A stretch of DNA of 47,405 bases, from assembly GCA_026125895.1 (NCBI GenBank), contig JAHCKG010000033.1, positions 1-47,405 on the forward strand. Direction: 5' to 3'. The notes beneath the pieces were generated by a model. That model did not search any database. It saw only the letters and a list, made by a program, of their open reading frames with translations, and was not told the origin of the DNA. Below are positions 17,225-23,377 of the stretch, in pieces (the first letter of the stretch is position 1; each line of letters opens with the position of its first letter). Made by a program: the position numbers and the translations under genes. This DNA comes from Pseudolabrys sp. Lineage in GTDB: Bacteria; Pseudomonadota; Alphaproteobacteria; Rhizobiales; Xanthobacteraceae.

Positions 17225-18361
17225 GTGACGACGGCGATCGGCTCCAACCCCTATAGCGCCGCGGGCTCCGCCTATGGCGCGCAGACCGCCGGCACAGCGG
17301 CGGCGGCGCAGTCCCGAACCGGCAATGCTGGCAGCGACACCGCGGCAACCACGACAACCAGCACCGACACCATCGAACTGTCCGACGCCGCCAAGGCCTA
17401 CCTCGCCAGCCAGTCGAGCAATTCGGCCGACCTCGCCGCAGAGGCGCGGGAATGGTTCGACTCCCAATACAAATCCACAGGCCTGGCCTCGCCGATGCTC
17501 GACGGCAGCGTCGCGCTCGACATGACCTCCGTCAGCCGTGAGACGTTGTTCGTCGTCGCCTCCAACAGCGAAGGTTTGTTCAGCAAAGACGAGGTCCTGG
17601 CGGCCGGCGTGACCTTACAGAAGAGGTTCGACGACGCGCTGACGCCCCATGTCGTCGTTGCCCGGCACACCGGCGACTATGTCGCCCTGTACAAGGCCGC
17701 CGCCGATTACCTCGACAAGGCCGGTGCCGGTGAGCGCGCGACGCCGCTATGGATCAGCACCAGGAAGGCGGTCGATGAAGGCCTGGCGCTGGCAAAGACG
17801 TCGCCAATGCAGGCGCCGCAGACAACGAACGGCAACGACCCCGTCTCGGCGCTGCTCAAGCAGACCTCGCAGGTCGCCGCGGCCGGCGATACGGCCACCG
17901 ACGCCGACGCAGCCTCCGACGCGCGGGCGCGGCTCGATGCGCTCGCCAACAAGGCCCGCGATGCCGGCACCGAACTGGTGTTCGATGCCTCGCGCAAGTC
18001 CGGCCAGTTCGTCGATTTCTCCAGCTTCAGCAATCGGTCGCTGGCGGTCATGACGCTCAACCAGGACGGCCAGTTCTCCGTGGATGAAGCGCGCGCGGCG
18101 AAGAAAGAGCTCGACCAGCGCAACCGCACCAGCCTCTTGGCGGTATTCAACGGCTCGAATGGCGACGTCGGCAGCCAGAGTCTGGCGCTGCTCAGCCACT
18201 ACAGCAACATGAGTGCCGCCGAAAAACTCGCATCCGGCTACAACAACGACCTGGAGAGCCGGCTGGTCCGGAACTACCGGCTGGCCTCGATGTTTGGCGG
18301 TGGCGCGGCTGCGGGCTCCGGCAGCGGCAGTAACCGCAGCCTGCTCAGCTATTTGAGCTGA
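17225..18361 (+). CDS. Duplicated EF-hand-like hypothetical protein, likely CtrA-controlled
   Basis: A 378-residue protein rich in alanine, serine and threonine with no cysteines and no obvious membrane helix. It contains two similar modules (about residues 95-160 and 262-330), each with a loop resembling an EF-hand: SNSEGLFSKDE near 113 and LNQDGQFSVDE near 279. Position one is not acidic, so calcium binding is doubtful. The low-complexity N-terminus and lack of cysteine are like flagellar or surface proteins. A CtrA box precedes it. GTG 17225 has GGGAA upstream. No known family recognised; function unknown. It overlaps the convergent metallopeptidase gene by 17 bases. Confidence 0.75.
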   Translation: MTTAIGSNPYSAAGSAYGAQTAGTAAAAQSRTGNAGSDTAATTTTSTDTIELSDAAKAYLASQSSNSADLAAEAREWFDSQYKSTGLASPMLDGSVALDMTSVSRETLFVVASNSEGLFSKDEVLAAGVTLQKRFDDALTPHVVVARHTGDYVALYKAAADYLDKAGAGERATPLWISTRKAVDEGLALAKTSPMQAPQTTNGNDPVSALLKQTSQVAAAGDTATDADAASDARARLDALANKARDAGTELVFDASRKSGQFVDFSSFSNRSLAVMTLNQDGQFSVDEARAAKKELDQRNRTSLLAVFNGSNGDVGSQSLALLSHYSNMSAAEKLASGYNNDLESRLVRNYRLASMFGGGAAAGSGSGSNRSLLSYLS

Positions 18362-19644: not shown

Positions 19645-20700
19645 TTATTCCGCCGCAACCGGCGCCTTCGGCAGCTTGTCCTGCGCCGACACCAGCCGGC
19701 GCATGATCTTGAGGTCGCGGTCCGACAACTGGAGGCAGGCGTCGGCCCAGACGCGCACGATGCGATCGAGTTCGTCGAGCGACAGCGGCATCACCTGGCG
19801 GCCGGCCTCGAACACGGCCCGGGCGCCGATATGGCGCCGCTTGCTGCGCTCCATGTAGTCGCGCGCGGCGGCAAGGCCCTGCCCCGGCTCGACGACCATG
19901 TGGACCAGACCCGCATCCTTCATTTCCTGCGCGGTGTAGGTCCGGCCGGTCAGCATCATCTCCTCGGCGAAGGCCGCGCCACAGCGCCGCGCGACGAGGC
20001 TGTAGGCACCCATGCCCGGGAACAGTCCAAACAACGTCTCCGGGAAGCCGAACTTGGCTTGGCTCTCGGCGATGATGACGTTGAACGACAGCAGGGATTC
20101 GAAGCCGCCGCCGAGCGCGTCCCCCTGCGCGAGGCCAATGGTGATCATCGGCAGACCGAGCGTGTACATGTTCCGGTGCAGAATGCGCACGCAGGACTCG
20201 CCATAGCCGATCAGGGCCTGGCGGTCGCGCTTGCGGATCAACTGCGCGAAAAGGTCGAGGTCGCCGCCGAGGTTGAAGACGCCGTCGGTGCGCGAGCCCA
20301 GCAACAGGTAGTTGAGCTCGCCGGGCCGATCCTTGAACTCCGCGACAATGCCGCGTTGCCAGGCGTGGAAGTCCTCCAGCAGGTCGGGATTGTAGCTTGG
20401 CCGTCCCCGCGGACGCATGAACGTCCACAACGCGCCCAGCTCCTTCTCGAAGCTGACTTCGAGCTGCTCGAGTTCGAACAGCCGGCGCGCATCGGTGGTG
20501 CGCCTGAGGTCGATGACGTTGGAGTCGGTGACCAGGGCCTCGGTCGTCTTGGAATAGACGACGTTGAGGGCGGTCGGCTTGAGGTCAAAACCGTTAACTG
20601 CCGGACCGAAACCCGGCAGGTCAGATCGCGCGTCGCTACGGACTACCGGCTTGGCGCCGGCAGGCCCGGGATTGGAATACGCAAACATCGACACTTCCAT
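19645..20700 (-). CDS. rpfF: DSF synthase RpfF homologue (crotonase superfamily)
   Basis: RpfF makes cis-2-unsaturated fatty acid signals (DSF family) by acting as both dehydratase and thioesterase on 3-hydroxyacyl-ACP. This 351-residue protein aligns by eye with Xanthomonas RpfF along its whole core: NPDLLEDFHAWQR, VFNLGGDLDLF (residues 141-151), QGDALGGGFESLL with E201, GFPETLFGLFPGMGAYS with E221, and the C-terminal DRDLKIMRRLVSAQ. The glutamates correspond to the two catalytic glutamates of RpfF. It has an N-terminal extension of about 60 residues of unknown role. ATG 20700 is given; ATG 20688 has a better-placed GGAAG. It is divergent from a membrane PAS-GGDEF-EAL gene and has its own terminator. 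The family call is strong; the product's chain is not known. Confidence 0.85.
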   Translation of the reverse strand: MEVSMFAYSNPGPAGAKPVVRSDARSDLPGFGPAVNGFDLKPTALNVVYSKTTEALVTDSNVIDLRRTTDARRLFELEQLEVSFEKELGALWTFMRPRGRPSYNPDLLEDFHAWQRGIVAEFKDRPGELNYLLLGSRTDGVFNLGGDLDLFAQLIRKRDRQALIGYGESCVRILHRNMYTLGLPMITIGLAQGDALGGGFESLLSFNVIIAESQAKFGFPETLFGLFPGMGAYSLVARRCGAAFAEEMMLTGRTYTAQEMKDAGLVHMVVEPGQGLAAARDYMERSKRRHIGARAVFEAGRQVMPLSLDELDRIVRVWADACLQLSDRDLKIMRRLVSAQDKLPKAPVAAE

Positions 20701-21043
20701 ACGCCCGTTAACTGTCTCTTTACCCTAACAGAATCCTAAGCGTTCAGCAATAAATCGCTACCTCCGATTGCATGGGTGACCCGCCATTGCCGCGGCGGAA
20801 GCCGACAATTAACAGCTAGAATGGCCCATATTTCGAACGTTAACTAAGATTGCGGAAAGCGAGTCGCGGGCGACCTCAAGTTCCATGGCCGAGACGGCAC
20901 CGGGGTGCCGCCTGACAACCGCTTAAACTTTAGGCGTAGTGTTTGGCATTTCTTCAGCACGTCTCCAGTTTGAAACCGGCGTTTGCGTCCTGTTGAGCAG
21001 ACGTGTGTAGCCTTCGGAGGTCCAAAACGGCGCACAAAGCGAC
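20701..21043. other. Shared 343-base control region of rpfF and the GGDEF-EAL gene
   Basis: No gene is convincing here. It must hold divergent promoters for both. GTTAAC occurs at 20707-20712 and near 20838, and a near-match to a CtrA box, TTAA-CTGTCTC-TTTAC, lies at 20708-20723, almost on the rpfF ribosome-binding site. A GGAGG at 21016-21020 is too far (23 bases) to serve the ATG at 21044. Confidence 0.45.
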
Positions 21044-23377
21044 ATGCTGATCAGGAAGCTGCTGCAAACTCGAAAGGCCGACGCCAATCTCCCCACGGAG
21101 ATCCGGGCGGCGCTGATCGACGCCCTGTTCGCACCGATCGCCTCGCTGATCGTCGGCGCCGTCGCCTGTTCGATCATCGGCGCCGCCGTGGCCTTCCGGG
21201 CTGGCGACCCCTCGCTGCTGGCGGTCTCGACCACGATCCTGGCGGTCGGGCTGATCCGCGTGATCTCGGCAATCCTGTACAAGCGCTACAAGCTGATCGA
21301 CCACGGCGCGACCAAGTTCTGGGAACTGGTGTACGAGTATGGCGCCTGGGCATTCTCCGGCCTGCTCGGCCTGCTGTGCTGGCTGACCATCACCCACACC
21401 ACCGATTCCGCCTTGCAGATGGCCGTAACGACCGTGTCGGCCGGCTACGGAGCAGCCATCTCCGGCCGCAACGCCGCCCGCCCCTTCATCGCCGTTGGCC
21501 AGCTCACCTTGTGCACGCTGCCGATGGCCGTCGCGCTCCTGATCTACCCGGATTGGCTGCACCGCACGCTGGGCTTCGTGGTGCTGCTGTTCATGTACGG
21601 CATGATGGATATCACGCTCTGCATTCGTGAAATCATCATGCAGGCGCTGACCATGACGCGGAAGGAAGCGGCGCTTGCAGCCCGCTTCGAGGAGCAGGCC
21701 AACCGCTTCGACGTGGCCCTCAACAACATGTCGCACGGCCTGTGCATGCTCGACGCGCAGGACCGGCTGCAGGTCTGGAACGAGCGATTCCTTGAACTGC
21801 TGCATTTGCAGAACGCGCCGGTGCGCGTCGCCATGCGGCTCACCGAACTCATCCGCTATAGTCTGCGGGCGCGCAACTACACCTCCAAGAGCGTGAAAAC
21901 CGTGGTCAGCGAACTGGTGCGCGGGCTTCGCCAGGACAATTTCGACCAGTTCCAGATCTCGCTCGACGGCGCCCGCACCATCGCGATTTCACGACGGATG
22001 ATGCCGGACGGCGGCTCGGTCATCATCTTCGAGGACGTCACGGAGCGGAACAGCGCTCAGGAGCGCATCGCACATCTGGCCCGTTTCGACGAACTCACGG
22101 GGCTGGCCAACCGCACGCAATTCCGCGAACGCATCGCGGCGACGCTGGCGGCGGTGCAGGAGCGCGAAAACCATATCGCCATCCACCTCATCGACCTCGA
22201 TCGTTTCAAGGCCATCAACGACACGCTAGGCCATCCGATCGGCGACATGCTGCTGAAGGAGGTTGCCGAACGGCTGCGCGCCATCGTGACCGGCGGCGAC
22301 ATGATCACCCGTTTCGGCGGCGACGAGTTCATCATCCTGCAGAGCGCAACTCCGCGGCAGCAGGACGCCAATGCCCTGGCCTTGCGCATCGCCAACACGA
22401 TCCGCGAGCCTTTCGAGATCTCCGGCCATCGCATCGATATCGGGGCATCGATCGGCATCGCCATGGCGCCGCACGATGGGGTCGACGCCGACGAGCTGCT
22501 GAAAAAAGCCGACATGGCGCTCTATGCCGCCAAGAACGTCGGCGGCGGCGGCCATCGTTTCTTCGCCATCGACATGGAAGACGCCGCGCAGGAGCGCCGC
22601 GCCCTCGAGCTCGACCTGCGCGAAGCCATCGCGCTCGACCAGTTCGAACTGCACTATCAGCCGCTCGTCGACCTGCACACCGGCAGGATCACGAGCTGCG
22701 AAGCGCTGATGCGCTGGACCCACCCGATGCGCGGCAATATTCCGCCATCGGTGTTCATCCCGGTGGCGGAAGAAACCGGCCTGATCATCGCGCTCGGCGA
22801 ATGGGCGCTTAACCGCGCCTGCGCCGACGCTTCAGGCTGGCCGCGCGACATCCGCGTCGCCGTCAACCTGTCGCCGGTCCAGTTCCGCGATCAGGGTCTC
22901 GGCCTGCAGGTGGTGGCGGCGCTGGCGAAGTCGGGCCTGTCGCCGCATCGGCTCGACCTCGAAGTCACCGAACGGCTACTGCTCGAGGACAACGACAGCA
23001 CGCTCAAGACCATGCAGCAGTTGCACGGTCTCGGCGTCAGCCTGTCGCTCGACGATTTCGGCACCGGCTATTCCTCGCTCAATTACCTGCGCAAATTCCC
23101 GTTCCACAAGATCAAGATCGACCGCTCGTTCATCGCCGACCTCGGCGACGGCCGCGATGCGCGCGCCATCATCGGCGCGGTGGCGGCGCTGGGCGCCGGC
23201 CTCGACAAGACCGTCGTCGCCGAAGGCATCGAGACCGAGGAGCAGATGAACCTGGTGCGCTCGCAAGGCTGCCAGGAAGGCCAGGGCTATCTCTTCGGCA
23301 AACCGATGAGCGCCACCGACATCCGGGCCCGCCTCGAGGCGCCGGTTGTGCCGCTTAAGCGGGTGCGCGTGGCCTGA
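21044..23377 (+). CDS. Membrane PAS-GGDEF-EAL cyclic di-GMP enzyme
   Basis: A 777-residue protein for making and breaking cyclic di-GMP. The N-terminus has about six predicted transmembrane helices (residues about 25-205), then a PAS domain (about 218-335: FDVALNNMSHGLCMLDAQDR), a GGDEF domain with intact GGDEF (residues 425-429) and an EAL domain with intact E553-A554-L555, NLSPVQF, DDFGTGYSSL, IKIDRSFI and VAEGIET. Both activities look possible. The I-site RxxD before GGDEF reads TGGD, so feedback inhibition is probably lost. It is divergent from the rpfF homologue, so it is a candidate receptor or output for the fatty acid signal. ATG 21044 is the only good start. Confidence 0.92.
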   Translation: MLIRKLLQTRKADANLPTEIRAALIDALFAPIASLIVGAVACSIIGAAVAFRAGDPSLLAVSTTILAVGLIRVISAILYKRYKLIDHGATKFWELVYEYGAWAFSGLLGLLCWLTITHTTDSALQMAVTTVSAGYGAAISGRNAARPFIAVGQLTLCTLPMAVALLIYPDWLHRTLGFVVLLFMYGMMDITLCIREIIMQALTMTRKEAALAARFEEQANRFDVALNNMSHGLCMLDAQDRLQVWNERFLELLHLQNAPVRVAMRLTELIRYSLRARNYTSKSVKTVVSELVRGLRQDNFDQFQISLDGARTIAISRRMMPDGGSVIIFEDVTERNSAQERIAHLARFDELTGLANRTQFRERIAATLAAVQERENHIAIHLIDLDRFKAINDTLGHPIGDMLLKEVAERLRAIVTGGDMITRFGGDEFIILQSATPRQQDANALALRIANTIREPFEISGHRIDIGASIGIAMAPHDGVDADELLKKADMALYAAKNVGGGGHRFFAIDMEDAAQERRALELDLREAIALDQFELHYQPLVDLHTGRITSCEALMRWTHPMRGNIPPSVFIPVAEETGLIIALGEWALNRACADASGWPRDIRVAVNLSPVQFRDQGLGLQVVAALAKSGLSPHRLDLEVTERLLLEDNDSTLKTMQQLHGLGVSLSLDDFGTGYSSLNYLRKFPFHKIKIDRSFIADLGDGRDARAIIGAVAALGAGLDKTVVAEGIETEEQMNLVRSQGCQEGQGYLFGKPMSATDIRARLEAPVVPLKRVRVA

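Follow-up and report, generated by a model that had tools for sequence, protein, structure and literature searches.

An RpfF-family crotonase gene and a membrane PAS-GGDEF-EAL protein gene in Pseudolabrys: a candidate pair for DSF-type signalling

The stretch of DNA studied here, called the window throughout, comprises 47,405 nucleotides of a Pseudolabrys sp. genome (contig JAHCKG010000033.1 of assembly GCA_026125895.1; the genome is 4.5 Mb long and 82% complete). It carries two adjacent genes, the first of which encodes a crotonase of the RpfF family, i.e. a putative synthase of a diffusible signal factor (DSF), and the second a membrane protein with PAS, GGDEF and EAL domains, hereafter TMGE (Table 1). 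The original prediction, made from the DNA letters and a list of their open reading frames, had described two divergent frames, an RpfF core with E201, E221, VFNLGGDLDLF and MRRLVSAQ, and a six-helix neighbour with intact catalytic motifs. All of this could be found again: the frames are present as described, so are the four crotonase features, and the Pfam domains, the motifs and the helices of an AlphaFold model agree with that account of TMGE.

Table 1. Positions of the features discussed, in window coordinates unless a locus is named.
Feature	Position	Strand	Basis or remark
RpfF-family crotonase, 351 aa	19645..20700	-	family models, PDB chain search, tree; start codon unproven
Glu201 codon (GGGFE)	20098..20100	-	alignment with 3m6m
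Glu221 codon (GFPE)	20038..20040	-	alignment with 3m6m
Divergent intergenic region, 343 bp between start codons	20701..21043	.	12 sequences aligned
TMGE, 777 aa, membrane protein with six helices and PAS_7, GGDEF and EAL domains; proposed to be the matching receptor and the output enzyme	21044..23377	+	
TMGE membrane domain, six predicted helices, ~residues 32-195	21137..21628	+	no Pfam match
RNAARP motif, residues 142-147, helix 4/5 turn, cytoplasmic side in predicted topology	21467..21484	+	
PAS_7 domain, residues 226-340	21719..22063	+	Pfam
GGDEF domain, residues 347-500; motif intact (425-429), no RxxD I-site	22082..22543	+	Pfam, motifs
EAL domain, residues 524-754; EAL and DDFGTG motifs intact	22613..23305	+	Pfam, motifs
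Other GGDEF-EAL gene between MBL and IlvD at a pair-less site	L397 9392-12031	-	
Other GGDEF-EAL gene between MBL and IlvD at a pair-less site	L403 9630-11852	-	

The PAS_7, GGDEF and EAL domains of TMGE score above their Pfam cut-offs, and PAS_8 is sub-threshold. The EAL motif lies at residue 553 and DDFGTG at 670; the I-site position of the GGDEF domain reads TGGD. In the AlphaFold model (mean pLDDT 67, pTM 0.55, PAS part poor) six helices lie within residues 31-190, a block with pLDDT of 73-92. The predicted 31 residues upstream of helix 1 are too few to accommodate an FI-like domain, and neither a REC domain nor a histidine kinase, receiver or HPt domain was found in TMGE with Pfam. A Foldseek search of the PDB with the membrane domain gave nothing at E<=0.001, and sequence comparison of the PAS domain with the PDB gave no convincing relative. 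Since the EAL motifs are intact, a phosphodiesterase output is favoured, and TMGE would most likely act by switching of its EAL phosphodiesterase. The intergenic region was considered as the place of a conserved operator, an idea that was rejected because the 12-sequence alignment showed short scattered conserved columns only.

The crotonase scored 357 bits against the NCBIfam family model NF006452 (cut-off 177), compared to 82 bits for the best ordinary enoyl-CoA hydratase model; two control loci scored 412 (L254) and 411 (L257). NCBI names the members of NF006452 only as crotonase/enoyl-CoA hydratase family protein. The best PDB chains, at 185 to 167 bits, were 7zq7 (titled crotonase/enoyl-CoA hydratase family protein), 3m6m (RpfF protein), 6dgn (RpfF) and 5fus (putative enoyl CoA hydratase), of which we take 3m6m to be the Xanthomonas enzyme and 6dgn the RpfR-type enzyme. 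The protein is not filed under the RpfF equivalog NF053515, against which it reached 206 bits with a cut-off of 550. Among the controls, L254, which lies beside RpfC and a REC-HD-GYP protein, passed this model with 580, and L257, beside RpfR, failed it with 181. Because an RpfF beside a protein that passes the RpfR model scores only 181, NF053515 has to be seen as narrow and of the Xanthomonas type. E201 and E221 of the window protein align onto two Glu of 3m6m, presumably its catalytic pair. Two conserved catalytic glutamates have been described (PMC4504480). Glu occupies each of the two positions in 137 of 139 RpfF-family loci, near-copies included, with Asp at the first in L137 and L138 and at the second in L272 and L273. 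The first ~60 residues of the window RpfF match most relatives poorly; the protein is 92% identical to the RpfF of Pseudolabrys sp. Root1462 (G026), whose record also contains the pair (L038). As a side observation, 14 listed rpfF matches of family f231 have one in-frame stop each (TAA, TAG or TGA).

A quick tree of 104 rows placed the protein among its relatives. For this tree, 139 RpfF rows had been reduced to 99, two solved RpfFs served as anchors and three enoyl-CoA hydratases of the window's own genome as the outgroup, for which seven proteins had been sought; long branches were flagged. The 101 RpfF-family rows stood apart from the three hydratases (SH-aLRT 99), and the window protein is thus placed, as the original prediction had supposed, in the RpfF family rather than with ordinary hydratases. 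3m6m grouped with a locus in which RpfC and a REC-HD-GYP gene are present; 6dgn grouped with loci carrying a soluble GGDEF-EAL protein taken as RpfR; therefore, our neighbourhood calls reproduce both known systems. The window RpfF falls within a 28-row set (support 93) that contains an inner set of 23 rows (support 99). A TMGE neighbour is present in 26 of the 28 rows, L123 is cut at a contig end, and L243, of family f64, has its TMGE elsewhere in the genome. Labels were given by hand, both for TMGE (L001, L009-L030, L046, whose partner is split in two frames, and L101, cut by a contig end) and for RpfR (L256-L261 and L263, with the L257 protein and the genomes of L256-L259 confirmed by the RpfR model).

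Presence of the two genes was then compared over 36 genomes of the genus, the window's own included, in which rpfF orthologues were called at E < 1e-130 and orthologues of the TMGE N-terminal part at E < 1e-60. In 22 genomes both genes occur next to each other on a single contig in divergent orientation, the TMGE gene of G017 being broken into two frames, and at those thresholds the other 14 genomes have neither. By plain counting, such joint presence and absence is one case in C(36,14), ~3.8 billion, a figure that is no true probability because the genomes are related and some of them incomplete. The neighbours DUF1499, MBL and IlvD were found at the site in 13 of the pair-less genomes with both pair genes missing; the 14th, G007, gave no DUF1499 match. 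This distribution bears on the possibility that the crotonase is a lipid-modifying or housekeeping dehydratase or thioesterase of fatty-acid metabolism, that TMGE senses an altered membrane, and that no cell-to-cell signal is involved. The unspecific name of NF006452 would allow such a role, and so would the existence of TMGE homologues without rpfF. However, a housekeeping role fits poorly with genomes that lack crotonase and TMGE alike (some of the 14 are only 83-91% complete), with the Glu pair being kept, and with a tree in which the crotonase groups with the solved RpfFs and with relatives adjoining RpfC plus HD-GYP or RpfR genes. We consider it quite unlikely.

The surroundings of the pair are less constant than the pair itself. 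All of 17 near-relative loci, examined with flanks of at most 8 kb, retain the pair; DUF1499 is found in 12, MBL in 11, IlvD, MFS (one match weak) and FKBP in five each, pepMx in four, TRAP in two and the product of the gene at 17225 in three; five of these loci keep the pair and no other tested neighbour. In G018 the pair lies ~1.9 Mb away from its usual site. It may be mentioned separately that the 378-aa protein encoded at 17225-18361 (plus strand) matched nothing in Pfam, NCBIfam or PHROGs at E<=0.001; PHROGs was scanned with two window proteins and matched neither.

Outside the genus, loci were sampled at three levels, with neighbour classes resting on single-sequence phmmer matches and motifs. 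The sample of the order (Hyphomicrobiales) held 55 genomes with an NF006452 match at E<=1e-40, 53 of them over the family cut-off, and flanks were taken for all 54 apart from our own. The class sample covered 20 of 24 genomes (the own one, one already covered, one with a stop and one partial were left out), and the phylum sample 20 of 63, hand-chosen for family spread, with eight others already covered. TMGE adjoins rpfF in 17 of the 54 order loci, in one of which (L101 in G259) only its C-terminal part precedes the contig end. In G216 each of the two genes is close to the end of a contig, and these two ends have 32 identical bases in common, inverted relative to each other, which is consistent with a convergent pair. 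Altogether, the pair was met in eight families and four gene orders: divergent in the window's genus; convergent in f14, f5, f50, f6 and one f42 genome; TMGE followed by rpfF in f29; and rpfF followed by TMGE in f23 and three f42 genomes. The divergent pairing of the original prediction thus holds within the genus and not elsewhere, where the three further orders are found; conservation beyond chance, which it had put up for checking, is supported by presence and absence, sites, neighbours and gene orders. At 15 TMGE-linked loci from seven other families, chosen for having the pair, none of eight other window neighbours was found within the available stretch. It could be argued that the two genes are neighbours by shared descent only and have no joint function, as the wider region is also syntenic in the closest relatives (L038-L040). 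This is already contradicted by a pair that is kept, in four orders, where the other tested neighbours are gone, that is jointly present or absent in the genus, and that sits at a different site in G018; the explanation is most improbable.

The other loci of these samples carry different partners of rpfF. At 29 of the 54 Hyphomicrobiales loci (L091-L096, L098-L100, L102-L104, L107-L108, L110-L112, L115, L117-L118, L120-L121, L124, L126-L129, L139 and L141) the genes facing rpfF encode an RpfC-type kinase together with a soluble REC-GGDEF-EAL protein, a class whose Pfam domains were checked for one example, L099; from these sequences, the HD-GYP output of RpfG appears to be replaced there by GGDEF-EAL. 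Two further order loci have an RpfC-type kinase with a REC-histidine-kinase protein, and six, G216 being one, have nothing within 4.5 kb. The 20 class loci comprise 14 with RpfC and a REC-kinase, one with RpfC and REC-GGDEF-EAL, and five without either class of partner, of which two are at contig ends and one has a solitary REC protein. A REC-histidine-kinase protein in place of RpfG beside an RpfC-type kinase was in all observed at 16 alphaproteobacterial loci (L133, L136, L235, L236, L238-L242 and L244-L250). Among the 20 phylum loci, eight have RpfC and REC-HD-GYP, seven RpfR, one another soluble GGDEF-EAL protein, three RpfC alone and one another kinase.

Two core DSF pathways have been described, RpfC/RpfG and RpfR, both ending in enzymes of cyclic di-GMP (c-di-GMP) turnover, and the contrast that the original prediction drew between a soluble RpfR and the membrane kinase RpfC matches this source (PMC4504480). 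Both receptor types were also sought alongside TMGE. The 42 genomes with a TMGE-type receptor consist of 40 with the pair (in G216 at contig ends, in G259 seen in part) and two of f64. The RpfC input domain was found in none of the 42 and in all six controls, two of which had supplied profile rows; the RpfR model was exceeded in none of the 26 of these genomes searched with it and in all four controls. Therefore TMGE is the only known or proposed core-type candidate that came out of these searches there, accessory kinases (RpfS, BCAM0227; PMC4504480) not having been sought. Homology between the TMGE membrane domain and the RpfC input domain was rejected, since the hhalign probability with 56 RpfC N-termini was 0.47%, a value that unrelated membrane controls also reach among themselves. 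Within the RpfC-type input domains, a Glu near the N-terminus (alignment column E31) is invariant in seven diverse sequences (L055, L092, L099, L124, L136, L262 and L266) and is reminiscent of RpfC E19 (PMC6536496).

The membrane domains of two rpfF-linked TMGE sets belong to one family (hhalign 99.94%), and a wider unnamed membrane-domain family occurs in 113 of 397 genomes of the order. Its 18 best matches (at least 238 bits, the next being 174) all lie in rpfF-positive genomes, the profile having been built from such proteins. The window's own genome holds one further, weak relative (39 bits), and a plain protein search of that genome with TMGE returned matches to the PAS part only. Typing covered 18 linked and 12 plus 3 unlinked proteins, and then 60 further segments, one of which was a linked control. 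Counting near-copies, 32 of 33 rpfF-linked rows carry RNA[AG]RP at residues 142-147; the remaining one reads RNAGRL. In the first comparison, the 15 unlinked proteins showed R[NT] and then Y or F at this place, and most unlinked members typed have R[NTA] and then Y or F; the 59 further unlinked segments came from rpfF-negative (39) and rpfF-positive (20) genomes. In f64, whose proteins played no part in defining the RNAxRP motif, two of three rpfF-positive genomes encode a protein of the RNAGRP type that is not adjacent to rpfF: in G575 the distance is 208 kb, and in G929 the two lie on separate contigs. A TMGE tree of 38 rows, built on the membrane, PAS and GGDEF domains, grouped 23 linked rows together against 15 unlinked homologues (97/95), and in a tree of the membrane domain a supported branch (97/90) separated 29 RNAxRP rows from 24 others.

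A number of observations speak against taking rpfF and TMGE as one signalling unit. RNA[AS]RP was found in four of the 59 further unlinked segments, all four from rpfF-negative genomes (no NF006452 match at E<=1e-40), namely L320 (G384) and L332, L336 and L339 (G265, G141 and G105). With these counterexamples, RNA[AG]RP cannot serve as a mark found only where rpfF is linked; judged by sequence, the four proteins are possible orphan receptors. The third rpfF-positive f64 genome has no TMGE-type match. On the membrane domain alone, with these four and the f64 rows added, the hypothesis that rpfF-linked TMGEs form one clade was rejected (AU p 0.0002). Six further rows with TMGE neighbours (f29, f23 and f42) lie outside the 28-row RpfF set, with five label changes instead of one clade; because partnered RpfFs occur in more than one place of the tree, the tree does not establish that the pairing arose once. 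L137 and L138, the most diverged of the TMGE-linked RpfF-like proteins, combine Asp at the first Glu position with scores below the NF006452 cut-off. Apart from G216, rpfF stands without a partner inside 4.5 kb at five loci of the order. On the far side of MBL, two of the 13 sites that lack the pair contain a different GGDEF-EAL gene, whose product does not have the membrane domain of TMGE (Table 1). As the wider membrane-domain family is found in many genomes without rpfF, it need not bind DSF; and as the membrane domain of TMGE is unrelated to that of RpfC, DSF binding cannot be argued by homology.

Judging from the synthase family, the intact active-site motifs, the co-inheritance of the pair and the absence of RpfC- and RpfR-type receptors from the genomes tested, we nevertheless believe it probable that the two genes form one DSF-type signalling unit, composed of a synthase and a one-component membrane c-di-GMP receptor enzyme. 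In this scenario, the RpfF-family enzyme would make a free cis-2-unsaturated fatty acid of the DSF type from acyl-ACP, the fatty acid would partition into the inner membrane, and the neighbouring TMGE would read it by its six-helix domain or by PAS_7. The answer would be given in the same polypeptide, as a change in c-di-GMP turnover, most likely via the EAL phosphodiesterase. Thus, one membrane protein might do the work of RpfC and RpfG in Xanthomonas or of the soluble RpfR in Burkholderia. What we infer here is the identity of the signal, that TMGE binds it, whether the membrane domain or PAS_7 does so, and in which direction the response goes. Both candidate domains have parallels: DSF sensing is reported for a five-helix membrane domain, with PA1396 needing two of its membrane helices (PMC6536496), and at the PAS domain of RpfR, BDSF switches on the phosphodiesterase (PMC6361424).

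The same co-inheritance data would fit a functional pair with control running in reverse or by contact, i.e. TMGE regulating or anchoring RpfF and sensing something else, with the RpfF product acting elsewhere. RpfF is reported to be restrained by the FI domain of RpfR (PMC6361424) and by the REC domain of RpfC (PMC4504480), and the RNAxRP motif lies on the cytoplasmic side in the predicted topology; contact between TMGE and RpfF is possible. On the other hand, TMGE lacks a REC domain as well as the space that an FI domain would need, and its intact EAL and GGDEF motifs suggest an enzyme output. This explanation seems unlikely to us.

A broader proposal may also be made, to which we give an even chance: TMGE would represent a third core class of DSF receptor, a one-component c-di-GMP enzyme embedded in the membrane. 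It would detect the fatty acid within the bilayer by means of a domain of six helices that is unrelated to RpfC and carries RNA[AG]RP as its mark, replace RpfC in several families of Hyphomicrobiales, be gained and lost together with rpfF as a unit in the window's genus, and persist in a few rpfF-free genomes, where it might listen in on the signals of other species. The parts are of known kinds, and the combination is new. As the original prediction had supposed of this third arrangement, no description of a membrane PAS-GGDEF-EAL partner of rpfF was found among the matches listed in a search of titles and abstract beginnings of the openly licensed literature, and RpfC and RpfR types could be set apart from TMGE. 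The candidate design comes from environmental bacteria, and the two known ones mainly from pathogens (PMC4504480). If true, it would link a fatty-acid signal to c-di-GMP through a single membrane protein, and it suggests that DSF synthases were repeatedly joined to c-di-GMP enzymes via unrelated sensors. The membrane domain and its motif can be named as candidates for fatty-acid sensing, and persistence of the pair in differently arranged genomes of Pseudolabrys and some related families suggests a third way of reading the signal.

Of the known systems, RpfF/RpfR of Burkholderia and Cronobacter is like the present pair in that an RpfF-family synthase adjoins a PAS-GGDEF-EAL protein, and the GGDEF-EAL part of an RpfR control is 39% identical to that of TMGE. 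However, RpfR is a soluble protein with the FI domain at its N-terminus (PMC6361424), whereas TMGE has six membrane helices and no space for FI; the control carries PAS_9/PAS and TMGE PAS_7. Against PRK10060 (Gmr/RpfR; cut-off 782), TMGE scored 392 over residues 331-762 only, i.e. over GGDEF-EAL, in contrast to 1200 over its length for the RpfR control. RpfF/RpfC/RpfG of Xanthomonas shares an RpfF-family synthase, a c-di-GMP output and the membrane-embedded reading of the signal proposed for TMGE, but TMGE has no kinase, phosphorelay or HD-GYP, and the membrane domains are unrelated. PA1396, a DSF-sensing membrane kinase of Pseudomonas aeruginosa, likewise uses a multi-helix membrane domain as its sensor, as may TMGE, yet this domain has five helices of the RpfC type and is joined to a histidine kinase (PMC6536496). 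Finally, the unnamed six-helix GGDEF-EAL family of Hyphomicrobiales has a homologous membrane domain and, in most members, a similar length, and differs in mostly lacking the RNA[AG]RP of the rpfF-linked rows.

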